From positions 1 to 41,190 of IMG/VR virus record IMGVR_UViG_3300007540_005056: a stretch of DNA of 41,190 nucleotides; one strand, written 5' to 3'. The stretch's first letter is position 1. Each line of letters starts with the position of its first letter. The translations under genes were made by a program, and so were the position numbers. Below the pieces are notes generated by a model, which saw only the letters and a program-made list of their open reading frames with translations, was not told the DNA's origin and did not search any database. Shown in pieces: positions 7,691 through 30,025 of this stretch. This stretch comes from a virus.

Positions 7691-8295
7691 TTAGTATAGC
7701 AATTACAGTTTGTAATGAACATGAGGAATTAGAGACTCTATTAGATTATTTATCTGATAGAGCTCTTTTTCCTGAATATGAAATTGTTGTTCAAATAGAT
7801 AAAGATAATCATACTGATGATGTTATTGGTGTGATTGTTGGTAGAGGAATCAAACATTGGTTTTACCCACTAAATAAAGATTTTGCTAGTTATAAAAATG
7901 AACTAGCCAACCACTGTGAAGGAAAATATATCTTCCAAATCGACGCTGACGAATTACCCTCAGTAGAATTACTTAATATGCTCCCTAGTATATTAGAAAG
8001 TAACCCCGAAGTGGATGTATACTTAGTTCCTCGAATTAATACTGTAAGTGGTATCACCGAGGAACATATCCTCAAGTGGGGTTGGAGATATGAAAATGAT
8101 AGAGTAAATTTCCCTGATTATCAATGGAGGATTTATAAAAACAATGGATCAATAAAATGGAAAAATAAAGTTCATGAAAACTTGGAGGGCCATAAAACGT
8201 TTGCTACATTACCGCCACAGGATGAATTTTGTTTATTACATCCAAAAACAATAGAAAAACAAGAAAAACAAAATAATTTTTACAATACTTTATAA
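7687..8295 (+). CDS. GT-A glycosyltransferase, family 2-like
   Basis: GT2 fold: ISIAITVCNEHEELETLLDYL at the N-terminus, an EIVVQIDKDNHTDD donor-binding region, and the metal-binding QIDADE motif (D86, D88). The ending (WRIYKNNGSIKWKNKVHE) is the pattern of the LPS-core/WaaE-like branch, in which W-R-I-Y and H-E lines are typical. At 202 residues it is short but includes the catalytic core. It overlaps the zinc-ribbon gene by four bases and sits two bases before the aminotransferase. Confidence 0.87.
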   Translation: MISIAITVCNEHEELETLLDYLSDRALFPEYEIVVQIDKDNHTDDVIGVIVGRGIKHWFYPLNKDFASYKNELANHCEGKYIFQIDADELPSVELLNMLPSILESNPEVDVYLVPRINTVSGITEEHILKWGWRYENDRVNFPDYQWRIYKNNGSIKWKNKVHENLEGHKTFATLPPQDEFCLLHPKTIEKQEKQNNFYNTL

Positions 8296-8296
8296 T

Positions 8297-9490: not shown

Positions 9491-10182
9491 AAATGAATAA
9501 TTTTGAATATAAACACTGGAATGAATATTGGGTAAATACAAAAAATCCTCCAATATATGAAAACCCACCTATTGAAGTTTATGGTGGTACAAATATTGAG
9601 CCATTAGCGTCAATTGGAATGTCTTGTTTCACTGATGCTTCAAGAGATGATTTTAAAGAAAATTTTTCTATTATTGATTATGGATGTGGGGCAGGTATAT
9701 TATCTAATTTTATAAGTGAGAGATTAGACTCATTTAAATATTTTGGATTAGAACCTAATAACAACTGGGGATCAGATTGGATTGAAAGAGGAAAAAAATA
9801 TTTTAATGATCCAAGAGTAAATTTTGGTTTCACAGATGACTATAATAAAATTGTAGAAAATAATAAAATAGATACAGTGATATTAATTTCTGTATTTACT
9901 CACTTAGTTATAGATGATTGTTTACAAATATTAGATAATCTTAAAAATATTTTTAAATATAATAAAAACGCTAGTATTATCTTTTCTTGCTTTACCTCAG
10001 ATACTCCTTGGATTGGTGATCTCCAATCAGATATTAATTCTAACTACTATAGTCAAAGTTATATAAAATTAAAAGATTTACAAGATTACACAGATAAAAA
10101 TAATCTTAAACTTACCAAACATATGGATTTTATAGCTATGGGAGGTTTTAAACATGAAATTTTTAAAATTACAGAACTATGA
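9484..10182 (+). CDS. class I SAM-dependent methyltransferase
   Basis: SAM-binding motif I IIDYGCGAG (about residues 63-71), an acidic motif II (FKYFGLEPNN) and a VILISVFTHL post-motif strand with a helix behind it: the class I methyltransferase fold. The N-terminus (KHWNEYWVNTKNPP) is a lid typical of small-molecule or sugar methyltransferases. The start overlaps the aminotransferase stop; a second ATG three codons later is also possible. Likely methylates the sugar being built by the operon. Confidence 0.85.
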   Translation: MVKMNNFEYKHWNEYWVNTKNPPIYENPPIEVYGGTNIEPLASIGMSCFTDASRDDFKENFSIIDYGCGAGILSNFISERLDSFKYFGLEPNNNWGSDWIERGKKYFNDPRVNFGFTDDYNKIVENNKIDTVILISVFTHLVIDDCLQILDNLKNIFKYNKNASIIFSCFTSDTPWIGDLQSDINSNYYSQSYIKLKDLQDYTDKNNLKLTKHMDFIAMGGFKHEIFKITEL

Positions 10183-10745
10183 TAGGATGGAATGAAGAAA
10201 TAAAAGAAACATTAGGATCATATGGAACTAATGTTTTCATTGGCCATAATGTAATCTTTACTAATCCTGATAAAGTACATCTTGGTAATAATGTTAGAAT
10301 TGATCCTTTTACCTTAATAACAACTGGTTTAAAAACGGGAGATAATATTCAAATATGTTCACATGCTGTTTTAGGAGGAGGAAACCAACATACTATTACT
10401 TTAGGAGATTGGTGTTTTATTGGATATGGATCTAAATTATTTTGTGCTTCTGAAGATTATTCAGGAGAATCAGGTCCAGTAAATGAATTTTGGGGATCAA
10501 ATAAAATATATAGAGGAGACATAACTCTTAAATCATACTCAGGAATCGCATCTGATGTTATGGTAATGCCTAAAGTTGTTATACCTGAGGGATGTACTGT
10601 AGGTGCTAAAAGTTTTATTTATACTAAAAACAATTTAGAACCTTGGGGAGTATATATTGGAAATCCTTTACAATTCCATAAATCCAGAAATAAAGAAAAT
10701 GTTATAAACTTATCAAAAGACTCTAAGTTTTTAAAGCAAAAATGA
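10179..10745 (+). CDS. hexapeptide-repeat (LbH) acyltransferase
   Basis: Left-handed beta-helix protein with repeated hexapeptide turns (for example IGHNVIFTN, HLGNNVRIDP, ITLGDWCFIG, VVIPEGCTVGAKS) and a closing VYIGNPLQF, as in WbbJ/maltose-acetyltransferase-like enzymes. These form trimers and usually acetylate or formylate a sugar or amino sugar from acyl-CoA. The family His that acts as base is probably in one of the central coils (ICSHAVLGGGNQH). It follows aminotransferase and methyltransferase genes, consistent with N-acylation of the new amine. Confidence 0.9.
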   Translation: MIGWNEEIKETLGSYGTNVFIGHNVIFTNPDKVHLGNNVRIDPFTLITTGLKTGDNIQICSHAVLGGGNQHTITLGDWCFIGYGSKLFCASEDYSGESGPVNEFWGSNKIYRGDITLKSYSGIASDVMVMPKVVIPEGCTVGAKSFIYTKNNLEPWGVYIGNPLQFHKSRNKENVINLSKDSKFLKQK

Positions 10746-11500
10746 AATGTGCTAAATTAATAGCTTGCTATTTTGGGGATAGAAGATCAGATAATGCTAA
10801 TCCAAAAAACCCATTTTCATTTATAAAAGAAATGATTCTTAATGAGTTATCTTTAGAAAATGGATATCCAACAGATGTTTATTTAATAGTCAATAACTGT
10901 GATAATTTATCATCTGATAATTTTTTATCTAAATATAATAATATTAAAACCAAAAATGGAACATTAAAAGTTATTAATAGAGAAAATATTGGGGGCTCAT
11001 TTGGTGCTTATTTAGATACTTATTCTAAATACCAAAACAAGTACAAATATTGGTTTTTTTGTGAAGACGATGTTTTTATTTACCAAAACAATTATATTAA
11101 AGTTTTTATAGATTATTTAGAACAAAATAAAGAAAATGTAAGTTTTGTATCTTTATCCCCTATTTCCCAAAACCATCCTATTCATTGTGGTGGAGGATGT
11201 GGATTAACATCAACAGATATAATGAAAGAGTATTATTCTAAAGAAACTATTGATAAATTTTTTGAAAATTATAAATTAAACGGATCATCATACTCTGTTT
11301 TATCTAATTATGAAACACAGTTTTCATCTCAGTTTTGTATTAAAGATAAAACCTTATCAAATTGTCCTGATTATTCTCCTTTATGTATCAATTATAATGA
11401 TCACTCAAATCAAAAAAGATATTATTTTTTAAGTGATGAAAAGAATCCTAAAGAATTTATATATTCTGTAGGTTCAACATCTCAAATACCTTTAATATGA
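10742..11500 (+). CDS. GT-A-like glycosyltransferase, divergent
   Basis: The beginning KCAKLIACYFGDRR and the middle NIGGSFGAYLDTY (84-96) followed by YWFFCEDDVF (metal-binding EDD, 108-110) give the order of a GT-A enzyme with a DxD-like site. It does not resemble the other GT2 genes closely. After the core there are several cysteines (HCGGGCG at about 148-154). It overlaps genes on both sides in the operon. Likely sugar transferase; donor and acceptor unknown. Confidence 0.65.
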   Translation: MKCAKLIACYFGDRRSDNANPKNPFSFIKEMILNELSLENGYPTDVYLIVNNCDNLSSDNFLSKYNNIKTKNGTLKVINRENIGGSFGAYLDTYSKYQNKYKYWFFCEDDVFIYQNNYIKVFIDYLEQNKENVSFVSLSPISQNHPIHCGGGCGLTSTDIMKEYYSKETIDKFFENYKLNGSSYSVLSNYETQFSSQFCIKDKTLSNCPDYSPLCINYNDHSNQKRYYFLSDEKNPKEFIYSVGSTSQIPLI

Positions 11501-12366
11501 AAAATTATTTACAAAATAAAACAGCTTTAGATATTCCATGGATTGAATCTCCTTTTTTTAATAAATTATTAGAATCATCTAATTATACAGAAGAAGAAAA
11601 GTCTTTATTAAAAGAATATAATGAAAAAGGTTATATTGTTATTGACTTAGAATTAACAGATGAATATATTGATAGTTTATTACAAGGAGTATTTGATGAA
11701 TTAAAAAAACTACCAACTCAAGACTCAAGATACCACTACTCAGAATCTCCAAGAATATTTGAAGGATGGAAAACCAATTCATATATTTTAGAATTAGCTA
11801 GACATCCAAAACTTTTATCAACATTAGAGTTATTATATGGTAAAAAAGCTATTCCATTTCAAACAATTAATTTTTTATATGGAAGTAATCAACCACTTCA
11901 TCAAGACTCAATTCATTTTTATACCCAACCAGAAAGATGGATGGTTGGAACTTGGACAGCGTTGCAAGACATGACTGATGATTGTGGTCCATTAAATATT
12001 GTTCCTGGAAGTCATAAATGGCCCCATTATAATTTTCAAAATTTAAATCTACCAAAAGCAGAGTTTGGTCAACAATTTGATAATTATCATGAATATGAAA
12101 ATTTTCTTATCCAATTAGTTGATGTAATGGAAGGTAAAAGAAAACAATGGCTTGGAAAAAAAGGACAATGTTTAATATGGGCATCTAATTTATTACATGG
12201 TGGTGCTCCAATTTTAAATCCTAAATCCACTAGGTATGCTCAAGCCACCCATTTTTATTTTGAGGGTTGTGACCATTACTATTCCCCATTATTTTCAGAT
12301 ACCCCAAAAGGTATTTATGCTGATAAAGATTTAACAAATAAAAATATACTAAATCACACAATATGA
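11497..12366 (+). CDS. phytanoyl-CoA dioxygenase-like Fe(II)/2-oxoglutarate oxygenase
   Basis: PhyH-family double-stranded beta-helix oxygenase: Fe ligands H135 and D137 (LHQDSIHF, HxD) and H234 (NLLHGG), 2-oxoglutarate-binding R246 (TRYAQ), plus a GPLNIVPGSHKW loop. Family members hydroxylate small molecules using O2 and 2-oxoglutarate, producing succinate and CO2. In a glycan operon it may hydroxylate a sugar or lipid carrier, or a fatty group. It overlaps its neighbours by four bases on each side. All metal ligands are present, so it should be active. Confidence 0.93.
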   Translation: MKNYLQNKTALDIPWIESPFFNKLLESSNYTEEEKSLLKEYNEKGYIVIDLELTDEYIDSLLQGVFDELKKLPTQDSRYHYSESPRIFEGWKTNSYILELARHPKLLSTLELLYGKKAIPFQTINFLYGSNQPLHQDSIHFYTQPERWMVGTWTALQDMTDDCGPLNIVPGSHKWPHYNFQNLNLPKAEFGQQFDNYHEYENFLIQLVDVMEGKRKQWLGKKGQCLIWASNLLHGGAPILNPKSTRYAQATHFYFEGCDHYYSPLFSDTPKGIYADKDLTNKNILNHTI

Positions 12367-13007
12367 AAAAAATAGCATTTTTTGGAGGAACAGGAGGATT
12401 AGGATCTAAAATTATTCCTTTTTTAGATGACACAAAATATAAAATTGAAACCATAGGTTCATCTAAAGTAGATCTTTTTAATGAAGAAACTATTCATAAT
12501 TACTTCCAAACAAATAATCCAGATATTATTATTTTATTTTCTAATTATAATTTTAATTCTTTTTTACATAAGTATGTTAATTCTTTTAATGAGTTAGATA
12601 AACAAATTGATATTAATATAAAAGGTATACTTAAATGTTTATCATATTCTCTAGATTATATGAGAAAAAATAATTATGGTAGAATTATTTTAGCGTCAAG
12701 TATTACTGTTGAAAAAAATGTTATAGGAACTAGTTTATACGCTGCTACAAAAGCATTTTATGAAAATATAGTTAAAACTATTTGTTTAGAAAACGCATCA
12801 AAAAATATAACAGCCAACTGTATTCAATTAGGATACATGGATGGTGGTTTAACTTATACTCTTCCTGAGGAATTTATTAATAATAAAATAAAAGAAATAC
12901 CTTCTCAACGATTAGGAACACCTAAAGAAATAGCAAATACACTTGGTTATCTAATAGAAAATAATTATATTAATGGCACCACTGTAAAATTAACAGGAGG
13001 ACTATGA
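12363..13007 (+). CDS. short-chain dehydrogenase/reductase (SDR)
   Basis: Classic SDR: NAD(P)-binding FFGGTGGLGS (7-15), catalytic Ser around 112-113 in ILASSIT, and Y126-x3-K130 (LYAATK); the end GTTVKLTGG is the standard SDR C-terminus. At 214 residues it is slightly short. It could oxidise or reduce a sugar hydroxyl and so supply the keto substrate for the aminotransferase at 8297; this pairing is inference. It overlaps the dioxygenase stop. Confidence 0.92.
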   Translation: MKKIAFFGGTGGLGSKIIPFLDDTKYKIETIGSSKVDLFNEETIHNYFQTNNPDIIILFSNYNFNSFLHKYVNSFNELDKQIDINIKGILKCLSYSLDYMRKNNYGRIILASSITVEKNVIGTSLYAATKAFYENIVKTICLENASKNITANCIQLGYMDGGLTYTLPEEFINNKIKEIPSQRLGTPKEIANTLGYLIENNYINGTTVKLTGGL

Positions 13008-13960
13008 GAATAATTAACGATAATAGACCATCTTTTTATTACATTAATGATGATAAAATATCAGGAGTTAATGTTGATAAATTAGGTTTTTATTTTAAAG
13101 ATTTTATATCTCCATTTCCAAAAAATTATGATGGAATAATAACTGTTTCTCGAACTGTTTTTTCAGTCGGGGATTGGGGAGTAATAAGTGGTCTTCCTTA
13201 TGCTTTAAAACAACTACATCCTAATTGCAAAATAGCTATCCCAACTCCAGAATGGAACAGACATGTATTTAATTTTTGGTTTTCATCTGGAGGAAACCAA
13301 TCAGTCTGGAATAAACCATGGGAAAACTCAGAGATAATTTTTAAAAATAACCCATATATTGATATTAGATTTAATGTTGGTGAAATGAAAGGAATGATAT
13401 TTCATGACCATCATAGAGTTTATACTGATAATGAGGAGGAACCAATAGTAGAACAGCTTTTAAGGTTTTTTGGAGCTGATGATGATCAAATTAAATCAAT
13501 AGATTCTAGGCCACAGTTATTTTTTGATGAAGAAGAAATAAAATTAGGTGATGAAATAATTAAAAAATATATAGGTGAAGAAGATTTTGGAACCTTGATG
13601 TTATCAACAGCTAATCCAAAATATCAAGTTCCTTGGGATGAAAAAATAGATAAAGAACTAATAAAAGAAATTAAAAAATATAAAAAACTTAAATTTTTCT
13701 ATTATAGTCAAGTACCTTTAGAACAAACTAGATATAATTTTATTAAAGGTATTAACATAGAAAACTTAAATATTCCCCTTAGAATCCAAATGTATATAAA
13801 AAATAAAGCACTTATTAATACAGGGTACCAATCAGGAATAAATGATTCTATAGGCACCAGAAACACAAAAATAATTTGTGCAACTCCTTATTCTTCTTTA
13901 AAATCAAATATAGGAAGAGGTATAAAATATTATAATGGTAATAACATAAAATGTATATAA
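13004..13960 (+). CDS. putative GT-B-like transferase, 318 aa
   Basis: No strong signature. The N-terminal half has an IITVSRTVFSVGDWGVISGLPYAL segment with a glycine-rich turn. The C-terminal half has a strand/helix order ending LRIQMYIKNKALINTGYQSGINDS, which resembles the donor side of heptosyltransferase-like (GT9) GT-B enzymes, where such a loop contacts the nucleotide. A FHDHHRVYTD stretch is His-rich. The gene overlaps the SDR and is seven bases before a methyltransferase. Alternative: a different glycan-binding or transfer enzyme. Confidence 0.45.
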   Translation: MRIINDNRPSFYYINDDKISGVNVDKLGFYFKDFISPFPKNYDGIITVSRTVFSVGDWGVISGLPYALKQLHPNCKIAIPTPEWNRHVFNFWFSSGGNQSVWNKPWENSEIIFKNNPYIDIRFNVGEMKGMIFHDHHRVYTDNEEEPIVEQLLRFFGADDDQIKSIDSRPQLFFDEEEIKLGDEIIKKYIGEEDFGTLMLSTANPKYQVPWDEKIDKELIKEIKKYKKLKFFYYSQVPLEQTRYNFIKGINIENLNIPLRIQMYIKNKALINTGYQSGINDSIGTRNTKIICATPYSSLKSNIGRGIKYYNGNNIKCI

Positions 13961-13967
13961 TTAAACT

Positions 13968-14576
13968 ATGGAACAAATAAAATTAAACTTAGGTTGCGCT
14001 TCTAAATTACTAGATGGCTACATTAACATTGATCAGGATAACATTGATGTTATCAGAGCTAGATACCCTTGGATAGAATTCCCTGAAGATGCTTATGTTT
14101 ACACTTATGATGTATTTAATTTACCTTATGAAGAGGGTACAGTGGATGAAGTAATTGCTGATGGATTTATTGAGCATTTGTCTTTTATTGAAGAGAAAAA
14201 AATGTTTGAAGAAATCAAACGTGTTCTCAAACCAGGTGGAGTATTAAGCTTTGCTGTTCCTAATTTTGAAAAAGTAGTTAAACTTTGGTTAGATGCTGAA
14301 GATAATTGGCAGGATTTTTATCGTTTAGATGAAGAAGCTATTGAACAAAAACATTGGTTTGGAACTTACACTTATGAACCTACTAATAGGTGGGGTTATT
14401 TAACAGCCCAACTATATGGTAGCCAACATGGTGAAGGTCAATTCCATCAAAATTGTTATACTATTCCTAAAATTAAAGCTATGTTAACTAAATTAGGGTT
14501 TTCTAATATTGATGTAACTGAATTTCAATGGAAGGGAGATAGAGACCCAATGTTAAGAACAGTAGCTATTAAATAA
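13968..14576 (+). CDS. SAM-dependent methyltransferase (Methyltransf_11-like)
   Basis: Motif I IKLNLGCASK near the N-terminus (5-14), acidic motif II (YINIDQD), a VIADGFIEHL strand, then IKRVLKPGGVLSFAVPN, the post-III segment of Methyltransf_11 enzymes acting on small molecules. Length 202 residues, complete. Two bases separate it from the next methyltransferase-like gene. It probably modifies the glycan of this operon. Confidence 0.88.
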   Translation: MEQIKLNLGCASKLLDGYINIDQDNIDVIRARYPWIEFPEDAYVYTYDVFNLPYEEGTVDEVIADGFIEHLSFIEEKKMFEEIKRVLKPGGVLSFAVPNFEKVVKLWLDAEDNWQDFYRLDEEAIEQKHWFGTYTYEPTNRWGYLTAQLYGSQHGEGQFHQNCYTIPKIKAMLTKLGFSNIDVTEFQWKGDRDPMLRTVAIK

Positions 14577-14577
14577 A

Positions 14578-15141
14578 ATGTACTTAAATCCTAAAATTGA
14601 ATCCTCTTATTATCAAAACAATTTAGGTAAAACTCTTTATGATTGGGTATTAGAAACAAAACCTATAAAAGTAATTGAGTTTGGATGTTTATATGGTTAT
14701 TCAACTATAGCTATTGGTTTAGCTTTAAAACACCTAGGTCAAGGTAAACTTATATGTTACGATTTATTTGAAGAATACAAATATAAACATTCAACAATAC
14801 AACAAACAATCCAAAATGTAAAAGAATATGGTGTTGAAGATTATGTAGAGTTTATTAAAATGGATTATGACAAATGGCTGTCTAATCCTGAAGATTTTGA
14901 TTTATTACACCTAGATATATCAAATACAGGGGACGTCGTTTTAAAAACATATAATGCGTTAAAAAACAAAATTAATAATGGTAGTGTAATATTATTTGAA
15001 GGTGGTAGTGAGGAAAGAGATAATGTTGAATGGATGATCAAATACAAAGCAACCCCTATAAATTCAGTTAAACAACATACAAATTATAAAATAATTAATT
15101 CAAATTTTCCATCATTGTCTATTATAAAAAATGAATATTAA
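14578..15141 (+). CDS. class I methyltransferase-like protein (Methyltransf_24-like)
   Basis: VIEFGCLYGYST (33-43) is a motif I variant, followed by KLICYDLFE (motif II) and DLLHLDISNTGDVVLKTYNALK, the pattern of the caffeoyl-CoA O-methyltransferase/Methyltransf_24 branch. Here LLHLDIS holds the metal or substrate aspartate. Together with the genes at 9484 and 13968 this makes three different methyltransferases in one operon. It overlaps the next gene by 11 bases. Confidence 0.78.
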   Translation: MYLNPKIESSYYQNNLGKTLYDWVLETKPIKVIEFGCLYGYSTIAIGLALKHLGQGKLICYDLFEEYKYKHSTIQQTIQNVKEYGVEDYVEFIKMDYDKWLSNPEDFDLLHLDISNTGDVVLKTYNALKNKINNGSVILFEGGSEERDNVEWMIKYKATPINSVKQHTNYKIINSNFPSLSIIKNEY

Positions 15142-16036
15142 TAATATAACAATAGTAATTGTAAGTTATTATAGAGGTTCTAGATTAAATAAATGTTTAG
15201 ATACTTTAAAAAATATTCCTAATATTTTAGTTTGGGATAATAATACCACTGGGGAGGAGTTAGAAAAAGTTAAATTAGCAGAACAAAACCACCCCCATGT
15301 TAAATTTATTTATAGTGAAGAAAATGTTGGTTTAACCAAAGCATGGAACCAAGGTATTATCCAGAGTGAAACAGATTGGGTTTTACTTACTTGTGATGAT
15401 ATGTTATTTGATGAAGATTGGTTTGAAGTATTAAATGATATTTTAAAAGAAAAACCTCAATTAGAACAAATCCATTTAAACGCTTGGAACGCTGTTGTTT
15501 TTCATAAGCAAACAATTGTTAGAATGGGTTGGTGGGATGAAAGATATCGTTATTATCCAAGTATGGAAGATGATGATTGGTATTTAAGAACAGTGGAAGA
15601 ATTAGGATATTCTCCTTATGGAGGAATTGCCCAACATATCCCATTTTCAGAAAAATACAAGAAAATTATTTCTCCTTATTTAAATAAAAAAGAAGAATAT
15701 TTTAACCAAGAAGATAATTTTACCTATTACTGTAATTCAGAATATTCTAAACATAAAGTAATAGGTTTATCTACTATTACAGGACAAGAAGATGATGCTG
15801 GAAGTAGAAATACATCCGAAGGAAGTTCAGATAAAGGTAATAATGCAACAGGGGTAGAAATACATCATAGAAAGTGGGAAAATATTATTGATCCCTCTAG
15901 ATTGAATGAAGAAGGAATGTTATTAGGAAAAGATGGGAGAATTTGGAAACGTAAAGAAGTTGACTTAGATTTCTATCCTAAAATTAGAAACGAATATGCT
16001 AAAAAATATTTTAATATAAATTTATATGAAGATTAG
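15131..16036 (+). CDS. GT2-family glycosyltransferase (rhamnosyltransferase-like)
   Basis: GT-A fold: ITIVIVSYYRGSRLNKCLDT, LVWDNNT (34-39), ENVGLTKAWNQG (64-75) and LLTCDDMLFDEDW with the metal-binding DD (89-90); then GWWDERYRYYPSMEDDDWYLR, whose ED...D motif is the usual base region. The C-terminal third (EEGMLLGKDGRIWKRKEVD) is an extension. It overlaps both neighbours. Probable inverting sugar transferase. Confidence 0.9.
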   Translation: MNINNITIVIVSYYRGSRLNKCLDTLKNIPNILVWDNNTTGEELEKVKLAEQNHPHVKFIYSEENVGLTKAWNQGIIQSETDWVLLTCDDMLFDEDWFEVLNDILKEKPQLEQIHLNAWNAVVFHKQTIVRMGWWDERYRYYPSMEDDDWYLRTVEELGYSPYGGIAQHIPFSEKYKKIISPYLNKKEEYFNQEDNFTYYCNSEYSKHKVIGLSTITGQEDDAGSRNTSEGSSDKGNNATGVEIHHRKWENIIDPSRLNEEGMLLGKDGRIWKRKEVDLDFYPKIRNEYAKKYFNINLYED

Positions 16037-17237
16037 TTTTATACAACCCTCAAGAAATAATCTTAAGTATCTTAAATGGTCTTATGATGCTATAAGAAAA
16101 AACCAAGGTGACCATACAGCTGAAATTTGTGTCGCTGATGATTTCTCAAATGATGGCACTTGGGAATGGTGTCAAGAAATGATGGAAAAAGATCCTGATT
16201 TTAAAGCAATTAGAAATGAAGGTCCAACTCGTTTAGGACATACTATTTTATATGATAGGTTAGTTAATGAATTAGCGAGTCATGAAATTTGTATGATTTA
16301 TCATGCTGATATGTACTTATGCCCTGGTGCTTTAGATGCTATTGAAAAACATATGTACACAGAGGTAGATGCTGGAGACAATGGCAAGCGATGGAAAAAT
16401 GAAAAAACAATAGTATCACTAACCCGTATTGAACCACCACTCCACCCTCCAGGACCAGAAAAAGTATTTGTTGATTGGGGTGCTACTGAACCTGAAGATT
16501 TTAATGAGGAAGAATTTCTTAATTGGTTTAATAATGATTTAGAAAAAAAAGAACCTACAGAAGGTATATTCGCACCTTGGGCTTTCTATAAAAAAGATTT
16601 TCAAGAAATAGGAGGGCATGATCCATTATATGCTCCTCAATCAAAAGAAGATTCTGATATTTTTAATCGCTTTCAATTAAATGGGGTTAAATTTTTACAA
16701 ACTTGGGAAGGTTATGTTTACCATATGACCTGCAGAGGTTCTAGATTTAATCCTTTATTAACAACACCTGGACAAAATTCAAATGAGTGGGAAGAACAGA
16801 ATGTTAGGTCAACTAGAAACTTTTTACGTAAATGGGGACATTTTTGTAAACATGATGCTTTAATGAAACCTATTATACCTCCTAAATATAATATTGGTTT
16901 TGAAATTATAAATTGCACTCCCCAACTTTTAGAAGTTTTAGAACCATGGGGAGATCATATTTTAGTTGATTTAACAGAAAATTATATTCAAGAATATATA
17001 GATAAAGAACAACCAAATACTAAATTTAATCTTAAAGAAAGAGTAAACACTAATAAAGAAACTGAAATTAGGGTTAGTGTAGATGGTAAAACATTTAATA
17101 ATGAAGATTTTAAAATTATTCAACAACTAACAGAAATAATTTCAGACAGCGGAAGTAAAGGAGCGTTTGGAATAGGTAATTTAGAAATAGTTATAAATGA
17201 TATGAATGAGTATCAAAATAACTTAATTAAACTATGA
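16026..17237 (+). CDS. GT2-family glycosyltransferase with C-terminal extension
   Basis: Last enzyme of the operon. KISFIQPSRNNLKYLKWSY at the start, VADDFSNDGTWEW (36-48) as donor site, an IYHADMYLCPGAL metal-binding region (D95), and IGGHDPLYAPQSKEDSDIFNR as base and acceptor region. About 130 further residues after the GT core form an acidic alpha/beta tail (LLEVLEPWGDHILVD to the end) of unknown role. The stop overlaps the following small gene. Confidence 0.88.
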   Translation: MKISFIQPSRNNLKYLKWSYDAIRKNQGDHTAEICVADDFSNDGTWEWCQEMMEKDPDFKAIRNEGPTRLGHTILYDRLVNELASHEICMIYHADMYLCPGALDAIEKHMYTEVDAGDNGKRWKNEKTIVSLTRIEPPLHPPGPEKVFVDWGATEPEDFNEEEFLNWFNNDLEKKEPTEGIFAPWAFYKKDFQEIGGHDPLYAPQSKEDSDIFNRFQLNGVKFLQTWEGYVYHMTCRGSRFNPLLTTPGQNSNEWEEQNVRSTRNFLRKWGHFCKHDALMKPIIPPKYNIGFEIINCTPQLLEVLEPWGDHILVDLTENYIQEYIDKEQPNTKFNLKERVNTNKETEIRVSVDGKTFNNEDFKIIQQLTEIISDSGSKGAFGIGNLEIVINDMNEYQNNLIKL

Positions 17238-17392
17238 TATTTGGATTTTATAATAGGAACGATAAGATGGAAGAACTTGTTGGGCGCACAGTTGGAACAT
17301 CTAGACTTAAAGCGGCTAAATATTTTGCTGCTAGAAAACAATTACCATTAAAAGAATTTTTAAAAATATTTGGAATAAAACAAGTAATCTAA
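17234..17392 (+). CDS. conserved small phage protein, 52 aa
   Basis: Starts at an ATG overlapping the stop of the last glycosyltransferase and ends overlapping the next start. It reads M-I-F-G-F-Y-N-R-N-D-K... with a GTSRLKAAKYFAARKQLPLK helical core. That core (TSR..AAKYFA..K.L....F) recurs in small proteins of Bacteroidota phages as I remember them. No biochemical function known to me. Overlaps on both sides show it is translated as part of the run. Confidence 0.75.
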   Translation: MIFGFYNRNDKMEELVGRTVGTSRLKAAKYFAARKQLPLKEFLKIFGIKQVI

Positions 17393-17799
17393 TGAATATG
17401 ACAGGTCTTTTTAAAGGTTTCGGAAAAAATTTAAATTTAAAACTACGTAACGAAAACAAATCATTTGGAAATAATAAAAAAACATTTGTTAAGTTAGTAG
17501 ATACTTTCGATCAATTAGTTCAACGAACTTATTCTATTGAGGAAGAGGTAGGTATCATTATGGAAAAATATGAAGAACCTTTCTTTATATTGATTGAAAG
17601 TTTATTTTATTTAAACTATGAGGATTGGAAAGCTGAGTTAGTTATGTGGTATGTTTATGATAGATGGGATGATGAAGGTGAATTATCTCCTCTTAATATA
17701 ACAGATATAGAAGCAGGAACAGAAGAAGAAATCATCATCAATACACCAGGTGAATTATATGATTTGTTAAAACGTATAGATAAAAAAGGAAAAAAATAA
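17392..17799 (+). CDS. hypothetical protein, 135 aa
   Basis: Acidic, mostly helical protein with an aromatic middle (FFILIESLFYLNYEDWKAEL) and WYVYDRWDDEGE. Its stop precedes a short AT-rich gap. It begins with MNMTGLF, so the second Met is also a possible start. The fold could be helical adaptor-like, but I do not recognise it. It is the last gene of the long overlapped run. Confidence 0.75.
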   Translation: MNMTGLFKGFGKNLNLKLRNENKSFGNNKKTFVKLVDTFDQLVQRTYSIEEEVGIIMEKYEEPFFILIESLFYLNYEDWKAELVMWYVYDRWDDEGELSPLNITDIEAGTEEEIIINTPGELYDLLKRIDKKGKK

Positions 17800-17819
17800 A
17801 AGTTATAATATTTAAAGTT

Positions 17820-18119
17820 ATGAAATGTATTAAATGTGGAGAATTAATTCCTGAAGGTAGATTAAAAGCATTACCAGGAACTAAAACATGTACAGCATGC
17901 TCAAATGCTAAAATGAAAGGAGTAGTTACAATAATGAAAGGTGAAGGAGATCATACTTGGATTGAAACTATTCATTTAGAACATGATGAACATCAAAAAT
18001 ATATGGAAGCGGAAAATCGCCTTCGTAAACAAAGTAGTACCCCATCAGATAAACTAGATTCATCTAATGATGTTCCTTATGGTTTTAAAGAAACTAAATT
18101 AAATAAAAAAGAAAAATAA
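17820..18119 (+). CDS. DksA/TraR-type C4 zinc-finger protein, 99 aa
   Basis: The N-terminal zinc finger CIKC-x17-CTAC (C3, C6, C24, C27) with IPEGRLKALPGTKTC between is the DksA/TraR signature. DksA-type proteins bind the RNA polymerase secondary channel and change promoter preference; phages carry short forms. Here the finger is at the N-terminus and the coiled-coil with acidic tip is missing, replaced by an acidic and basic tail, so the polymerase role is uncertain. The leader AAAGTTATG matches other genes here. Confidence 0.8.
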   Translation: MKCIKCGELIPEGRLKALPGTKTCTACSNAKMKGVVTIMKGEGDHTWIETIHLEHDEHQKYMEAENRLRKQSSTPSDKLDSSNDVPYGFKETKLNKKEK

Positions 18120-18760
18120 TGCCTAAAGCTAGACCACTCAGTAAAGAGGAAATTCTAGCAGCTATGTCTAAAACGAAATCAGTACGTAGCGCTGCTAGGT
18201 ATCTGAATTGTTCCTATCAACATCTTAAAAAATGGATGAAATTATATGATGGTAGTAATGGTCAAAGTTTATTTGAGGAACATAAAAATCAATCAGGTAA
18301 AGGCATTCCTAAATTTTTAAGTAATTCTCCATTTGGGAAAAAAGAACCTGCTATATTAGATATTATAAATGGTGTAGTAGATGCCTCTAATTTTAATCCT
18401 CAAAAAATTAAATATAGACTTATAGAAGGAGGTCACTTAAAAGAAGAATGTTATAACTGTGGATTTCATGAAAGAAGAGTATTAGATTATAAAATGCCTT
18501 TAATACTCCATTTTAAGAATGGTAATAAACAACATTATAGATTAGATAATTTAGAAATGCTTTGTTATAATTGCTATTTCCTTTCAGTTGGAGATTTATT
18601 TACAGGTAAACAAGTTGAACAAATGGAAGATCATGTACCAAGTAAAGAAAAAGAACCAGATTGGGAAGTAGATGATTATACTCAACAACGACTAAAAGAA
18701 TTAGGATTATATGATTCTAAACCAGATGATGATCCTTATGATTTAGTGTCTAAACTTTAA
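18119..18760 (+). CDS. HTH plus degenerate HNH-like zinc protein, 213 aa
   Basis: Helix-turn-helix at the N-terminus (SVRSAARYLNCSYQHLKKW, 21-39), then a zinc/beta-beta-alpha unit: CYNCGF (C111, C114), LILHFKNGNKQHYRLDNLEMLCYNC (H131, N144, C149, C152). The layout is that of HNH nucleases, but the usual DH or HH at the first catalytic position reads LHF and the final H after CxxC is Tyr (Y153). It may therefore bind DNA without cutting; a regulator is more likely than a homing enzyme. The start overlaps the DksA-like gene by one base. Confidence 0.75.
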   Translation: MPKARPLSKEEILAAMSKTKSVRSAARYLNCSYQHLKKWMKLYDGSNGQSLFEEHKNQSGKGIPKFLSNSPFGKKEPAILDIINGVVDASNFNPQKIKYRLIEGGHLKEECYNCGFHERRVLDYKMPLILHFKNGNKQHYRLDNLEMLCYNCYFLSVGDLFTGKQVEQMEDHVPSKEKEPDWEVDDYTQQRLKELGLYDSKPDDDPYDLVSKL

Positions 18761-23963: not shown

Positions 23964-24344
23964 ATGAAAAAGTTATTTTTTGGGCTGTTGTTTATGTTGG
24001 CAAGTAGTTTGTCAGCCCAGTCCTATTTGAGGGCCGAATCTTTTACAATGGGGGTTAGGCAGAGTGAGGTATCGCCTATTGTTTGGGGTGAAACTAATGA
24101 GTGTAGTATTTTAATTGAACTTTATGAGACTAAAGTTATTATTAATAGTAAGGTACTACAAACATACTATGTTATTAATCAGGTCCTTGATACTACACCA
24201 GGTGTAAGAACTTGGATGTGTAAAGATTTAAATGGGAATACTTGTAAATTTACTATGATGTATTTAATTAAATACCCAGGGTTTACAATTTGCCAGGTTG
24301 ATTATAATGATGCTGTCTGGTTTTACGTTTGTACAAAAAATTAA
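23964..24344 (+). CDS. small secreted protein, 126 aa
   Basis: The start at 23964 is chosen over an upstream in-frame ATG because it gives a proper signal peptide: MKK, a hydrophobic core LFFGLLFMLASSL and a cleavage site SAQ. The mature part is beta-rich with four cysteines (NECS, WMCKDLNGNTCKF, FTICQVDYNDAVWFYV). Similar little secreted proteins occur in Bacteroidota and their phages as I recall. It lies first in the exported-protein island; function unknown. Confidence 0.75.
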   Translation: MKKLFFGLLFMLASSLSAQSYLRAESFTMGVRQSEVSPIVWGETNECSILIELYETKVIINSKVLQTYYVINQVLDTTPGVRTWMCKDLNGNTCKFTMMYLIKYPGFTICQVDYNDAVWFYVCTKN

Positions 24345-24346
24345 TT

Positions 24347-24538
24347 ATGCCTACACTTAGAAAATATGTGACCACAACAGACATGAATGTCTATGAGGTT
24401 GAAGTAACTGAAGAACAGTTAGAAGTTTTTAAGAACGATGAAGATCGTTTTTATGATGAAATTATGGAAGACTTAGATTGGGAATGGGCCCATGATAAAG
24501 TTGGAGATGAAGATTGGACAATTGAAATAAAAGATTAA
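24347..24538 (+). CDS. small acidic protein, 63 aa
   Basis: Start at 24347 (MPTLRKY) is preferred to an earlier in-frame ATG inside the previous gene. Contains VYEVEVTEEQLEVFKNDED and a strongly acidic, Trp-containing end (DLDWEWAHDKVGDEDW). No signal peptide, unlike its neighbours. Function unknown. Confidence 0.72.
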   Translation: MPTLRKYVTTTDMNVYEVEVTEEQLEVFKNDEDRFYDEIMEDLDWEWAHDKVGDEDWTIEIKD

Positions 24539-24539
24539 T

Positions 24540-25478
24540 ATGAAAAAACTATTCGGTTTATTGGCTGTGATGGCGACTGTGGTAAGTGCTCAAGCCAAAT
24601 GTGATTGGTCTGGTTATTGGATGAAAACAGTTAACCAGCAACAAAATGTATTTACGTTTCAAACAAACGTAGATTGGGATTCATGTGTTGATTACTGGTG
24701 GATTGTTTACGACTATCAGTTGAAGAAAAAAGACACACTTCAAGACTTTAACGGTTATACACAAGTACAATTTAATGCTAAAGGAAAGTATAAAGTAGTA
24801 CTTCATGTACTTGATGCTTGTAATAAGTGTGACACTAATTTTGTTCAAGAAATTGATATTACAATTTATGGTAAGGCAGATGTTGGATATAATGTAGGGG
24901 CCCATAATTGTCATTATTATACTTTTGAAATGACTAATATGAATGATGATTGTATTGAGTACTATTATTCAATTTACAAGAGTGATTTATTTGATTCTCT
25001 TTATGGTTACTGGGATACAGCTGAAGATTTATATGAGTGGTTGTATTTTAATTATGACTTTGATGAAAACGATTTAGTGTATTATAATACAGCATCACAA
25101 CGAGTTGTTAACCATGAGTTTGTTGATTCAGGTCGTCATTTGTTGATTGGTTATTGGTATAATACATGTACTGGAATTGATACTTGGGTTATGCGTAAGG
25201 TAAATGTTTGTGTTAGTGAGCCTGTAAATGGATTAGTTCCAATTTCACCTTCAGTAGGAGGAATGGCTCGCCCTAATCCAACTAGTTGTGAGTTTTATAT
25301 TACTGAAACTAAAGTGGCTGCTGAGTATATGATTTTGAATACTTCAGGAACTATTATCGCAACTGGTAATACAAGCGCATTTGAGCAAGTTAAAGTTAAA
25401 ACTTGTAATTGGCCTAATGGAGTTTATTACCTTTGGGTAATGGGTGTTGGGCGTGAACTTATTGTTATCCAACATTAA
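24540..25478 (+). CDS. secreted PKD-like protein with a T9SS C-terminal sorting domain
   Basis: Signal peptide MKKLFGLLAVMATVVSAQA, then Trp/Tyr-rich beta modules of PKD-like shape (FNAKGKYKVVLHVLDACNKC), and a C-terminal part of about 80 residues (231-312). That part shows the order of Bacteroidota type-A T9SS sorting domains: ARPNPTSCEF (243-252), a YMILNTSGTIIATG turn, and NWPNGVYYLWV (290-300). Known T9SS domains direct proteins across the outer membrane, after which the domain is cut and the protein anchored or released. Two cysteines near the domain are unusual. Probable surface or released protein of unknown target. It is followed by a terminator hairpin. Confidence 0.8.
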   Translation: MKKLFGLLAVMATVVSAQAKCDWSGYWMKTVNQQQNVFTFQTNVDWDSCVDYWWIVYDYQLKKKDTLQDFNGYTQVQFNAKGKYKVVLHVLDACNKCDTNFVQEIDITIYGKADVGYNVGAHNCHYYTFEMTNMNDDCIEYYYSIYKSDLFDSLYGYWDTAEDLYEWLYFNYDFDENDLVYYNTASQRVVNHEFVDSGRHLLIGYWYNTCTGIDTWVMRKVNVCVSEPVNGLVPISPSVGGMARPNPTSCEFYITETKVAAEYMILNTSGTIIATGNTSAFEQVKVKTCNWPNGVYYLWVMGVGRELIVIQH

Positions 25479-25514
25479 TTGAAGGGTAATATTTTAGTAA
25501 TCATTTAAATGTTG

Positions 25515-25539
25515 AGGGTCGCTATGTATTAGCGACCTT
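25515..25539 (+). terminator. perfect hairpin terminator before the TonB receptor gene
   Basis: GGTCGCTA (25517-25524), loop TGTAT, TAGCGACC (25530-25537), extended by A-T and G-T pairs at its foot. It lies just ten bases upstream of the next start codon. It can end the upstream transcript, or lie in the leader of the receptor mRNA. No clear -33/-7 promoter is seen between it and the receptor gene. Confidence 0.75.
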
Positions 25540-25548
25540 TCAAATAAT

Positions 25549-27738
25549 ATGTTATTACTCGTTGCAATTTTTAATTTGTTTCAATCTGATACAAGTAAGA
25601 TAGGAGAGGTTAATATCTCAGTATCTGCGAAACAAGAAACAATCTCATCCACAATTAATTTTCAAAAGAAAAGTTTAGTAATTCTAGACATTGTTTCTTC
25701 AGAATCAATTAACAAAACTCCTGACGCTAATATAAGTGGAGTATTAAAGCGAGTAGGTGGTGCTTCAATCCAAAACGATAAATTTATTATTGTTAGAGGA
25801 TTAGCCGATAGATACAATTCAGTATCATTAAATGGAGCTTTAATAGGTTCAACTGAACCAGATAAAAAATCATTCTCATTTGATTTAGTTCCATCTAATT
25901 TAGTTGACAATCTAACAGTTACTAAAACAGCCAGTCCAGAAATTACAGGTGAATTTTCAGGAGGCTTGGTTAACATAGTTACTAAAGTACCAAGCAGACA
26001 AATAAAACAATTAAGTTTGGGATTAGGGTATGGCAGTTTATCTACATTCAATAATGGGTGGAAATTAAACACTACTTATCTACCTAATGATTTTTTATCA
26101 ACAAAACAGTTTAGGAGCTTGCCGACGGACGCAAGACGTGCTGAATCAGATAAAATCAATTCGGTATTTAATCCTACTCAAACTTTTAATATACCAAACT
26201 TATCTCTAAAATATACTTTAGGTGATAGAAATTTTATATCTAATTTAACCCTCAGAAAATCAAATTCCATTATAACTAGTGAAAGACAAGACTATATGTC
26301 AGGTAATGACTTAATGTATCAATACGTTGATATAAACTATAGTGAGGTTATAAACATAGGAGGTATCACAAACATTAAATTAAAATCATTAGATTTTAAA
26401 AATACTTTTAATTATTTAAGAGAAAATTCAGTTGTTGAACGTAATGGAGTAAATTATGATAACCAACAATTAATTAATAGTACTAGTTCAAATCATACTA
26501 ATAAATTTATTTTATTAACTCAATTAAATAATAAAAAATGGGGCATTAACTACAGCTTACTTTATAGAACACAACCTGACTATAGAATTAATCCGTTTGC
26601 TAAAAACATTGATTCAAAAGGTGACTCTAATTTTATATGGAGAGACTCATATAGATTCTGGAGTAAAATGAATGAGAATATTTTAGGTGGTTATTACAAT
26701 GATACTTTAGGAAAAATTAAGTATGGTTTTTATGAGATGTTTAAGTATAGAGGTTTTGGAGCTAGAGTATTTAGATACGACAATGGTTTTGTGTTAAATG
26801 AAATAACTAATAATACAGACAAGTATAATGCTTATTCTAATCTAGCATCAGGTTATGCCTCATATTATAACTCAAATGGTAAGTTTAGTTATTTAACAGG
26901 TGTTAGAGTTGAGAATCAATTATTCAGAGTCAACACTTATGATTTTGGAGGAACACCTCAAAACATAAACAGAATTTATTTAGACATTTCACCTTCATTA
27001 AATTTAACTTATGGTAAAGTAAACAAAGTAAGAATGTCATTAAGCCAAACAGTTGCTCGCCCTGAATTTAGAGAAGTAAGCAACTTTGCATTTTATGACT
27101 TTGCTAGGAATGCTCAAATAGTAGGCAATCCAAACTTAGTAAGAACTAAAGTATTGAACAGTGATTTAAGATATGAAATATACCCTTCCAAAAATGAAAT
27201 AATCACAGTATCAGCTTTTTACAAATACTTTATTAATCCAATTGAACAAACAGTTGATAACGGTTCAGTACCAAGCAATTTGATATTAACGTTATCTAAT
27301 TCACCTAAAGCAACTTTGTACGGAGGTGAAATTGAGATTAGAAAAAATATAACTAAAGAACTACAATTATACTCTAACTTATCTTATTTCAAATCAACAG
27401 TAGTAGCTAGTTCATGGTACAGACCATTACAAGGTCAATCACCTTATATTATTAATGCTGGTTTGTTTTACACTAAAGACAAATACTCAATAAATGCACT
27501 CTACAATCGAATTGGTGAAAGAATAGCAGCAGTTGGATTTCAAGGTTATCCAGACATTTATGAGAATGCTAGAGATGTATTGGATATAACAGCTCAATAT
27601 GAAACTAAAAGAACAACAATTAAATTCACATTATCAGATCTATTATCTCAAAATTCTAGATTTTATCAGAAGGGCAGAGATTTGATTACTAATAATAACG
27701 AAACAAATATAAATTTAAGTGTAAATTACAAACTATGA
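25549..27738 (+). CDS. TonB-dependent outer-membrane receptor, compact
   Basis: Outer-membrane transporter with a plug domain (about 45-147: SINKTPDANISGVLKRV, IIVRGLADRYNSVSLNGA, EFSGGLVNIVT) and a beta barrel to the end (LSVNYKL). This is the plug pattern of Bacteroidota receptors that import iron complexes, vitamins or glycans using TonB energy. It lacks the N-terminal carboxypeptidase-regulatory-like domain common in host relatives. At 729 residues it is compact. The signal peptide is short and lacks a basic start (MLLLVAIFNLFQS), which is odd and may weaken export. The stop overlaps the lipoprotein gene start, so the two are probably translated together. Confidence 0.92.
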   Translation: MLLLVAIFNLFQSDTSKIGEVNISVSAKQETISSTINFQKKSLVILDIVSSESINKTPDANISGVLKRVGGASIQNDKFIIVRGLADRYNSVSLNGALIGSTEPDKKSFSFDLVPSNLVDNLTVTKTASPEITGEFSGGLVNIVTKVPSRQIKQLSLGLGYGSLSTFNNGWKLNTTYLPNDFLSTKQFRSLPTDARRAESDKINSVFNPTQTFNIPNLSLKYTLGDRNFISNLTLRKSNSIITSERQDYMSGNDLMYQYVDINYSEVINIGGITNIKLKSLDFKNTFNYLRENSVVERNGVNYDNQQLINSTSSNHTNKFILLTQLNNKKWGINYSLLYRTQPDYRINPFAKNIDSKGDSNFIWRDSYRFWSKMNENILGGYYNDTLGKIKYGFYEMFKYRGFGARVFRYDNGFVLNEITNNTDKYNAYSNLASGYASYYNSNGKFSYLTGVRVENQLFRVNTYDFGGTPQNINRIYLDISPSLNLTYGKVNKVRMSLSQTVARPEFREVSNFAFYDFARNAQIVGNPNLVRTKVLNSDLRYEIYPSKNEIITVSAFYKYFINPIEQTVDNGSVPSNLILTLSNSPKATLYGGEIEIRKNITKELQLYSNLSYFKSTVVASSWYRPLQGQSPYIINAGLFYTKDKYSINALYNRIGERIAAVGFQGYPDIYENARDVLDITAQYETKRTTIKFTLSDLLSQNSRFYQKGRDLITNNNETNINLSVNYKL

Positions 27739-28934
27739 AAAAACTATTGTTTTTAGCAGTTGGGGCATTGATGATGCTCAACTCATGCAAAGAAGATCCA
27801 ATCGAACCAACAATTGATACGGTTCTAGTTGGAACATTAACTCAAGACAAAACCTTGACAGCAGACAAAGTATGGACCTTGAAAGGCTACGTTTACGTTC
27901 CTGAAGGTGTTACTTTGACTATTGAAGCAGGAACCACTATCAAAAGTGATATTGCTGAAAAAGGTGCTTTATGTATTGAAAGAGGAGGTAAGATTATGGC
28001 CGAAGGTACTGCTGATAAGCCTATTGTTTTTACTTCTGGTCAAGCTAGTCCTGCACCTGGGGATTGGGGTGGAGTTATTTTGTTAGGTAAAGCAACTACC
28101 AACAGAACAACTGAACCAACAATTGAGGGTGGTATTGGAAGACCTTATGGAGGTAATGACGACAATGATAATTCAGGAGTATTAAAGTATGTTAGAGTTG
28201 AGTATGCCGGTATTGCTGCCTTCCCTAATTCAGAAATTAATGCTTTCACATTTGGTGCTGTTGGTTCAGGTACTACAGTTGAATTCTGTGAATCTTATTA
28301 CGGTAATGATGATGCGTTTGAATTCTTTGGAGGTACAGTTAGTCCAAAGTACTTAGTTGCCGTTGGTACTGCTGATGATGATTATGATTTTGACTTTGGT
28401 TATAGAGGAACTATACAGTATGCTATTTCAAAACGTGATCCTCAATTTGTTGATGGTGCTGATGCCGGGAATGGAATTGAATGTGACAATGATGGAACTG
28501 GTTCTTCAGCTACTCCAACTACTCATCCAACATTATTGAACTTTACTTTAATTGGACCTGCTACTTCAAATGCTGCTGCTAATCATAATTTGGCTATGAG
28601 ATGGAGACGTGCAAGTCAATTCACAGTTGTGAACTCTATCTTCTACGGATACTTAAAAGGTGGTTTAAGTTTAGAGAGTGATGAAACTGCTCAAGCATTT
28701 AAAGACGGTGTAAGCAAATTTGTAAACAACTATGTCTCGGCTGTTGATACTGCTAAATTAACAATCAGTAAATCTTCAGTAATTGCTTCATCTGAAATGC
28801 CCGGTATTGCTTCAACCTCAACATTTAGCACCTCACAAGTTGCTCCATTCAATAATATGTTTGAATCAACTACAAACATCGGAGCTATTCCTTTCGGTAC
28901 AGTAAATTGGTTATTAGGTTGGACTAAATTTTAA
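27735..28934 (+). CDS. surface lipoprotein, beta-helix-like, partner of the TonB receptor
   Basis: Lipoprotein signal peptide with lipobox LNSC (Cys 18) followed by K-E-D, acidic as in Bacteroidota surface-export signals. The mature protein is rich in Gly, Thr and Asp with beta-helix-type turns (GVTLTIEAGTTIKSD, GGKIMAEGTADKPIVFTS). Such proteins occur beside TonB receptors in flavobacterial genomes as I recall, and may catch the ligand. It overlaps the receptor stop by four bases. Its base composition looks more GC-rich than that of the phage genes, which suggests acquisition from a host. Confidence 0.82.
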   Translation: MKKLLFLAVGALMMLNSCKEDPIEPTIDTVLVGTLTQDKTLTADKVWTLKGYVYVPEGVTLTIEAGTTIKSDIAEKGALCIERGGKIMAEGTADKPIVFTSGQASPAPGDWGGVILLGKATTNRTTEPTIEGGIGRPYGGNDDNDNSGVLKYVRVEYAGIAAFPNSEINAFTFGAVGSGTTVEFCESYYGNDDAFEFFGGTVSPKYLVAVGTADDDYDFDFGYRGTIQYAISKRDPQFVDGADAGNGIECDNDGTGSSATPTTHPTLLNFTLIGPATSNAAANHNLAMRWRRASQFTVVNSIFYGYLKGGLSLESDETAQAFKDGVSKFVNNYVSAVDTAKLTISKSSVIASSEMPGIASTSTFSTSQVAPFNNMFESTTNIGAIPFGTVNWLLGWTKF

Positions 28935-28956: not shown

Positions 28957-28988
28957 CTTGGAGGGGCGCAAGCCCCTCTTTATATTTA
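28957..28988 (+). promoter_or_regulatory. Bacteroidota-type promoter (CTTG-N20-TATATTTA) with a terminator in its spacer
   Basis: CTTGG at 28957, TATATTTA at 28981-28988, 20 bases between. The spacer is filled by the hairpin at 28961-28978. The next start, GTG at 28994, is five bases past the -7 box, so the thymidylate synthase mRNA would be nearly leaderless. Confidence 0.82.
28961..28978 (+). terminator. GC-rich tetraloop hairpin terminator
   Basis: GAGGGGC, loop GCAA, GCCCCTC, followed by TTTATATTTATT: a perfect seven-pair stem closed by a GNRA tetraloop with a U-rich tail in RNA. It ends the exported-protein unit and lies within the promoter spacer for the next gene. Confidence 0.88.
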
Positions 28989-28993
28989 TTAAT

Positions 28994-30025
28994 GTGAACC
29001 CATTAGATCTACAATATCAACAACTACTCAAAGATATAATTGAATATGGAGTAGAAAAACAAGACAGAACTGGAACCGGAACAAAAAGTATATTTGGTTA
29101 TACTATCAGGCATAATATGGCCGATGGTTTTCCTTTATTAACAACTAAGAAGGTTGCCTTCAAGACAATGGTAACTGAGTTGTTGTGGTTCTTAAAAGGA
29201 GATACCAACATTAAGTATTTGGTTGATAATGAATGTAACATTTGGAATGGTGATGCTTATAAAAACTATGAGAAGTATGCAATGGCTAATTCATATGGTG
29301 TTGATGTATTCTCAATGGATGAGTTTATTGATGAAATTAAAAATAATAATGAGTTTGCTAAGAAGTGGGGTGAGTTAGGGCCAATTTACGGTAAGCAATG
29401 GAGAGATTGGAAAATCAATTTAATTGACCCGCACACTATGGAGTTTGTTCCACCTATTGACCAAATCCAAAACCTAATCAACGACCTTAAAACAAACCCA
29501 GATTCAAGACGATTAATGGTTTCAGCTTGGAATGTAGGTGAAATAAATCATATGGTTCTTCCTCCTTGTCATTATGGATTTCAAGTTTATACAACTGAAA
29601 TGAATGAAGAAGAAAGAAAAAATTGTTGGGCAACTTATATAGGAAAAAGTAAAAAGTATGTTGAAAAAATGGATCATAACAGATTGGATAAAGTAAATGC
29701 TCCATCAAGAAAAATTTCACTAATGTGGAATCAAAGATCAGTTGATACATTTTTAGGTCTTCCTTTTAATATTTCCTCATATGGTTTATTACTAATAATG
29801 ATTGCTAAAGAAGTTAATATGATTCCTGATCAATTAATTGGTAGTTTGGGCGATACTCATCTTTATTTGAATCATATTAAACAAGCTAAAGAACAAATTA
29901 AAAGAACTCCATTTAAATTACCAACAGTAGAAATAAATGAGGTAGATGTGTTGAAAGGTGAAGTAGAATTAGAATTAAAAAATTATTTACATCACGATCC
30001 AATTAAAGCACCTCTTTCAAATTAA
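28994..30025 (+). CDS. thyA: thymidylate synthase (GTG start)
   Basis: Methylates dUMP to dTMP using methylene-tetrahydrofolate. R24 (DRTGTGT, phosphate loop), the catalytic Cys 192 in LPPCHYGFQVY, and NQRSVDTFLGLPFNISSYG with the Asn (N259) that selects dUMP are all present. The GTG at 28994 is chosen because the earlier in-frame ATG at 28958 lies within the promoter and terminator hairpin. At 343 residues it exceeds the E. coli enzyme (264) because of inserts around residues 83-130 and 200-235. Supplies dTTP for phage replication. The Asn argues against a dCMP hydroxymethylase. Confidence 0.95.
   Translation: MNPLDLQYQQLLKDIIEYGVEKQDRTGTGTKSIFGYTIRHNMADGFPLLTTKKVAFKTMVTELLWFLKGDTNIKYLVDNECNIWNGDAYKNYEKYAMANSYGVDVFSMDEFIDEIKNNNEFAKKWGELGPIYGKQWRDWKINLIDPHTMEFVPPIDQIQNLINDLKTNPDSRRLMVSAWNVGEINHMVLPPCHYGFQVYTTEMNEEERKNCWATYIGKSKKYVEKMDHNRLDKVNAPSRKISLMWNQRSVDTFLGLPFNISSYGLLLIMIAKEVNMIPDQLIGSLGDTHLYLNHIKQAKEQIKRTPFKLPTVEINEVDVLKGEVELELKNYLHHDPIKAPLSN

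Follow-up and report, generated by a model that had tools for sequence, protein, structure and literature searches.

The stretch of viral DNA analysed here, referred to as the window, is the whole IMG/VR record IMGVR_UViG_3300007540_005056 (positions 1–41,190) and carries a gene for a TonB-dependent receptor (25549–27738) directly followed by a gene for a surface lipoprotein (27735–28934); the window features described below between 23964 and 30025 are located on the plus strand. A first-pass annotation, made from the sequence alone, had counted both among four consecutive exported or surface genes forming one phage-borne module. Our analysis reduced this module to a narrower and better-defined conserved unit, the receptor and the lipoprotein gene. 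Family matches to a clamp loader, an exonuclease, an endolysin and thymidylate synthase confirmed the supposed setting inside a phage genome; endonuclease VII, a groEL-like protein and glycosyltransferases were matched as well. No capsid or tail gene was recognised among the window proteins scanned, and the 41,190-base window probably represents part of the genome of a T4-like phage.

Receptor and lipoprotein genes

The receptor gene encodes 729 amino acids with domains for a plug (Plug, PF07715) and a C-terminal beta-barrel (OMP_b-brl_3, PF14905), both above cut-off; a match to TIGR01782 was partial and under its cut-off. An AlphaFold2 model (predicted local distance difference test, pLDDT, of 83), built like that of the lipoprotein on alignments of the fetched loci, matched TonB-dependent transporters in a Foldseek search with an E-value of 1e-25. 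The closest solved folds were siderophore, haem, copper and cobalamin receptors with an identity of 11–14%. Thus, both the compact TonB-dependent receptor described in the first-pass annotation and its missing N-terminal regulatory domain (no CarboxypepD_reg match) were borne out. Phage receptors fall into two lengths of about 745 and about 825 amino acids, and inspection of their N-termini revealed that the longer ones mostly keep a CarboxypepD_reg-like segment, while the shorter ones, that of the window included, do not. Since both lengths occur within one phage clade, the loss of this domain is a within-clade event and no defining feature. Inspection of the alignment also showed that IGEVNIS, near receptor residues 17–24, lines up with LSEITV/LQEVVV of relatives and likely represents the TonB-box region.

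The lipoprotein of 399 amino acids carries the lipobox LNSC with Cys18 and was modelled as a beta-helix (pLDDT 89.5), for which structure matches in the PDB were weak (best Foldseek E-value 1e-2). No Pfam family matched it, SusD included, and a search of PDB sequences with the lipoprotein, both as a single sequence and as a profile, resulted in nothing significant. It had been annotated as a lipoprotein with a lipoprotein export signal (LES) whose start overlaps the receptor stop; the overlap, in the tetranucleotide ATGA, and the beta-helix were retained, whereas the LES signal is not general among phage copies. The lipobox cysteine is followed in the window by the remaining residues of CKED, and the motif in other phage copies is mostly CxK(D/E)LG. 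Phage lipoproteins comprise about 400 amino acids compared with about 455 in bacteria; both share a set of invariant acidic and arginine residues, e.g., D192, D193, E196, D214–D216, D218, D220, E249, D251, R289, R291, and R292. As these residues are kept, the putative binding or catalytic site of the phage lipoprotein appears intact.

Occurrence, descent and exchange of the pair

A scan of viral contigs in IMG/VR revealed at least 134 stretches encoding the lipoprotein, on records of up to 326 kb, of which 80 loci were kept. The ATGA overlap between receptor and lipoprotein gene was exact in all kept phage loci holding both genes (76/76) and was found in one of 77 bacterial loci, bacterial pairs being mostly 5–290 bp apart. 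This one locus (L082) lies on a 4.2-kb contig of a Cytophagaceae metagenome-assembled genome (JAIXRT010000198.1), displays the phage lipobox CSKDLG and a phage-clade lipoprotein in addition to the ATGA junction, and probably derives from a phage, having been assigned to the bacterial genome during binning. With respect to the 49 pair-carrying viral records, a terminase was detected on 17 and a tail-sheath match on 12. The terminases belong to three classes with about 20–33% identity between classes, one of which is that of a distant huge phage of 634 kb. PhoH is ubiquitous in phages, and its presence in 13 of the 49 records was not used as evidence. No pair was found in isolates among 50,697 phage records.

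Homologues are common in Bacteroidota (250 of 395 sampled genomes), though the nearest sampled one shares only about 61–65% identity with the window lipoprotein. Maximum-likelihood analysis placed the phage lipoproteins in one clade (support 100/99) inside a Chitinophagales/Sphingobacteriales group of the Bacteroidota family. Outside of this main clade branched the lipoproteins of huge phage LR745206 and of two human-gut records, which are likely separate captures, both gut records being short and unverified. The pair of LR745206.1 (634 kb, positions 14791–18628) is diverged, shows the reversed order of lipoprotein and receptor and has no upstream triple repeat; the huge-phage paper attributes phages of this size class to Bacteroidetes hosts.

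Comparison with a diverged relative, phage locus L001 (on an IMG/VR contig of 75 kb with a tail-sheath gene on its record), revealed a common gene order on both flanks with about 39–95% protein identity, the receptor reaching 94% and the lipoprotein 98%. Receptor and lipoprotein gene had a synonymous divergence (dS) of 0.25 and 0.14, respectively, while 12 other genes ranged from 0.43 to saturation. In addition, DNA identity climbs from a hairpin just before the receptor start (25517–25537) and collapses just after an intrinsic terminator closing the cassette (28960–28979; terminator scan, -16.6 kcal/mol). The low dS together with these sharp borders therefore shows that the pair was recently exchanged between these phages as one cassette. 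Ratios of nonsynonymous to synonymous divergence (dN/dS) of 0.11 for the receptor and 0.07 for the lipoprotein show that both genes are under purifying selection. The two genes upstream, in contrast, diverge freely (39% identity to L001 for 24540–25478 and 71% for 23964–24344), on which grounds the four-gene module was rejected: only receptor and lipoprotein are co-conserved and co-transferred.

Pho context, promoter region and predicted function

In bacterial loci of at least 11 kb, the pair was found near genes for the phosphate transporter PitA, a PhoU-like protein, an OprP-like porin, PhoR or PhoB in 35 of 60 cases, and this linkage also appeared at further loci of the phylum sample (L195 and L206–L208). 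None of the viral loci had such genes beside the pair. According to gene context and published description, the bacterial arrangement matches the PUSIV/FII locus of Flavobacterium johnsoniae, in which the receptor Fjoh_0545 and the lipoprotein Fjoh_0546 (FII), located in a phoBR cluster, are upregulated by log2 values of 8.0 and 9.9 on phosphate depletion, the response being reportedly phosphate-specific with tight repression under nitrogen and iron limitation (PMC8115612). FII itself is reported to be a distant relative of Caulobacter ElpS (31–36% identity over about half of the protein). Based on the ATGA overlap, conserved residues, tree and gene context, the window lipoprotein is homologous to Bacteroidota Pho-locus lipoproteins, its putative FII type being assigned by gene context.

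Upstream of the receptor, a Pho-box-like direct repeat was identified (25476–25508), composed of three TAAY units with 11-bp spacing (TAATTGAAGGG TAATATTTTAG TAATCATTTAA). It is the only chain of at least three units on either strand of the window, and ends 40 bases before the receptor start codon; its first unit shares bases with the stop codon of the gene upstream. In a set of 49 dereplicated phage receptor promoters, at least two TAAC/TAAT units at 11 bp occurred in 39 and at least three in 14, compared with 3.6 and 0.03 in shuffled sequences, and the 55 bacterial receptor promoters gave 52 and 43, respectively. Other gene starts of the same phage loci served as control and yielded 39/939 and 0/939 (Fisher tests, 1e-38 and 8e-20). 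Spacings of 10 or 12 bp showed no excess in receptor promoters. Direct repeats at 11 bp are the geometry of a PhoB box, which the TAAY repeat resembles, making it a candidate for one. Furthermore, the TTAACA units of the repeat fit TTTAACA, a motif bound by a PhoP/PhoB-type regulator of Riemerella (Flavobacteriia; PMC9603813). A genome-wide search for four-unit TAAY chains recovered the receptor of the pair in several genomes; further hits were another receptor, a PAP2-like gene and noise, with chains at non-Pho sites and, in genome G051, mostly unrelated-looking repeats; a stricter pattern, three times TAACA, was dropped as too strict. As a conserved element of the receptor promoter, the repeat is therefore convincing, as the mark of a defined regulon less so. 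A possible -7-type promoter element was tentatively assigned (TAAATGTTG, 25506–25514), resembling TA(A/G)TTATTG, which was found about 25–31 bp before the receptor start in many phage copies. The hairpin mentioned above (GGTCGCTA-TGTAT-TAGCGACC, -16.2 kcal/mol with flanking bases), also present in L001, is a candidate leader hairpin or weak terminator.

Altogether, we consider it likely that the two genes are a phosphorus-acquisition pair of Bacteroidota descent, spread by phages and placed under host PhoB control. The link to phosphorus is drawn from homology, neighbour genes and the promoter, and from it we infer transport, PhoB binding, induction, the substrate and a benefit for the phage. 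After export to the cell surface, the lipoprotein may bind or help to process a phosphorus-containing substrate, putatively phosphate or an organic phosphate, and pass it to the receptor. The latter, energised by the host TonB-ExbBD system, would import it across the outer membrane, and host inner-membrane phosphate transporters would complete the uptake. With a putative host-type PhoB box, the pair would be made mainly in the phosphate-starved infected cell and could keep up the inflow of phosphorus during copying of the phage DNA. Presumably, the pair and its starvation-responsive control were acquired by phages from Bacteroidota, and the pair now passes from phage to phage. The uptake of a limiting nutrient during infection, one of two roles offered in the first-pass annotation, was thus supported and narrowed to phosphorus by the Pho context, the induction in F. 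johnsoniae and the Pho-box-like promoter.

Several points weigh against this interpretation. The likeness to Fjoh_0546 relies on gene context and published description. Some bacterial pairs (Pedobacter-type, L097) have no Pho neighbours, though the repeat is present. The hairpin between promoter and receptor start could reduce expression, and the N-terminus of the window receptor (MLLLVAIFNLFQSD) has a predicted signal peptide without the positive N-region that most relatives possess. Finally, the part of the Riemerella regulator in phosphate control is itself putative.

Four other explanations were weighed. Judged by its nearest solved folds, the receptor might serve a different nutrient, such as an iron-siderophore, cobalamin or a glycan, yet no TonB receptors are better represented in the PDB than these, and they were matched at the low identity given above. 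As the bacterial homologues cluster with Pho genes, the promoter repeat is present, the F. johnsoniae locus is reportedly phosphate-specific and repressed under nitrogen and iron limitation, and the lipoprotein has neither a SusD nor another known family domain, we regard a different nutrient as improbable. Many phages use TonB receptors for adsorption, and lipoproteins blocking FhuA are known from phages T5 and phi80. Since both proteins of the pair are predicted to be surface exposed, one of them might prevent the adsorption of rival phages by masking or replacing host receptors. For such a remodelling of the cell surface, the second role offered in the first-pass annotation, we obtained no positive evidence. 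The transport machinery (plug, barrel and likely TonB box) is conserved and both genes occur together, while the known lipoproteins for exclusion are small proteins acting on their own, in contrast to a 399-residue beta-helix model with a partner receptor; moreover, the Pho-box-like promoter predicts expression solely under phosphate starvation, and superinfection exclusion appears distinctly improbable.

The strong repeat with its conserved position could also be read as a set of Pho boxes that mainly titrate host PhoB, the proteins being incidental, but purifying selection on both proteins and the retained site residues of the lipoprotein make this very improbable. Lastly, in view of the many bacterial homologues, the genes could be host DNA brought in by an assembly chimera or a contaminating bacterial contig. 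This is refuted by L001, a diverged phage with receptor and lipoprotein in the same place and the same flanking genes on both sides, so that the chimera was rejected and the phage origin held. The distance to the nearest sampled bacterial lipoprotein, the phage-type ATGA overlap, the well-supported phage clade and the terminase or tail-sheath genes on many records point in the same direction, leaving such an artefact practically out of the question.

Among known systems, PUSIV of F. johnsoniae, located beside OprP and PhoBR, is one of the most similar to the predicted phosphorus-acquisition pair, with a receptor followed by a lipoprotein of the pectin-lyase-fold type, and the bacterial homologues of the phage pair sit in the same kind of Pho cluster (PMC8115612). 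Phage copies differ from it in having no Pho neighbours, an ATGA-fused junction and shorter lipoproteins, and many of their receptors have no N-terminal regulatory domain. ElpS (CC0170) of Caulobacter crescentus is likewise a surface lipoprotein induced by phosphate starvation that adjoins a TonB receptor (CC0171) and is linked to phosphatase activity (PMC2996285); however, it is proteobacterial and released in a type II secretion-dependent manner, and expression of the CC0171 receptor is not phosphate-dependent. The pstS gene of cyanophages and other PhoBR-controlled phage genes (PMC10976474) offer a parallel as a host-derived phosphorus-uptake gene in T4-like phages under host PhoBR control, though PstS acts in the periplasm as a single component of an ABC importer, whereas the pair is a predicted outer-membrane active-transport system in phages of Bacteroidota. 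SusCD/PusCD systems also combine a TonB receptor with a surface lipoprotein, but no SusD domain was matched in the phage lipoprotein, whose model is a beta-helix.

No published description of such a pair or of phage-encoded TonB receptors was found, subscription papers and preprints lying outside the search. The best-known phosphorus genes of phages come from marine cyanophages, and their products work at the inner membrane or in the periplasm. With the pair, phosphorus acquisition by phages would reach the outer membrane and Bacteroidota, the host control having been taken over with the genes. Its defined promoter and its two proteins would offer a way to ask whether phages use the host starvation sensor to time feeding of the cell. 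They would also give access to the function of a lipoprotein family whose induction in phosphate-starved Flavobacterium is among the strongest of all proteins. With the regulatory domain lost in one sub-lineage, the translational fusion and the mobility between unrelated large phages, the pair might even be a specialised viral version instead of a part taken over from the host, perhaps tuned to recovering phosphorus from the debris of lysed neighbouring cells or from extracellular nucleic acid. We regard this as rather unlikely; if true, the starving infected cell would feed on the products of earlier lysis.

Neighbouring genes and further observations

The gene directly upstream (24540–25478) encodes a 312-residue secreted protein with a borderline type A sorting domain of the type IX secretion system (T9SS), which stayed below cut-off in both libraries (PF18962, 24.2/27 bits; TIGR04183, 19.5/23 bits). 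Its C-terminus, ARPNPTS...WPNGVYYLWV, looks right for such a domain. No T9SS domain was detected in the L001 orthologue (dN/dS 0.36), and pattern stretches of the protein had no match in other viral contigs. Of the PKD-like protein with type IX sorting described in the first-pass annotation, the sorting domain is borderline, while no PKD domain was found. The gene further upstream (23964–24344) encodes a probably secreted protein of 126 amino acids without family matches; neither the putative T9SS cargo nor this small protein belongs to the conserved, mobile unit. Elsewhere, T9SS sorting domains above cut-off were identified in frames of 634–642 amino acids of several large phages (G016:12001–12237, G015:16111–16347, G024:9028–9249, and G003:9488–9715, the records of L021, L020, L033, and L004, respectively), and huge phage LR745206 carries one in a 204-residue frame. 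Phage-encoded T9SS cargo may thus be a recurring theme.

Downstream, the cassette is flanked by the phage gene for thymidylate synthase (28958–30025; phrog_160, E-value 4.5e-104; 73% identity in L001). With 355 amino acids compared to mostly 264–318 in the models, and a match broken into several stretches, a possible insertion inside the enzyme is indicated. In L001, an additional alpha/beta-hydrolase-like gene (13467–14516) is located between the cassette terminator and thymidylate synthase. At the 5' end of the window, a groEL/Cpn60-like gene (8–994, 328 amino acids) matched only the C-terminal part of the family. Finally, glycosyltransferases, an aminotransferase and a methyltransferase are grouped in one block (4493–17237), which suggests a phage-encoded cluster for surface-glycan or DNA modification.

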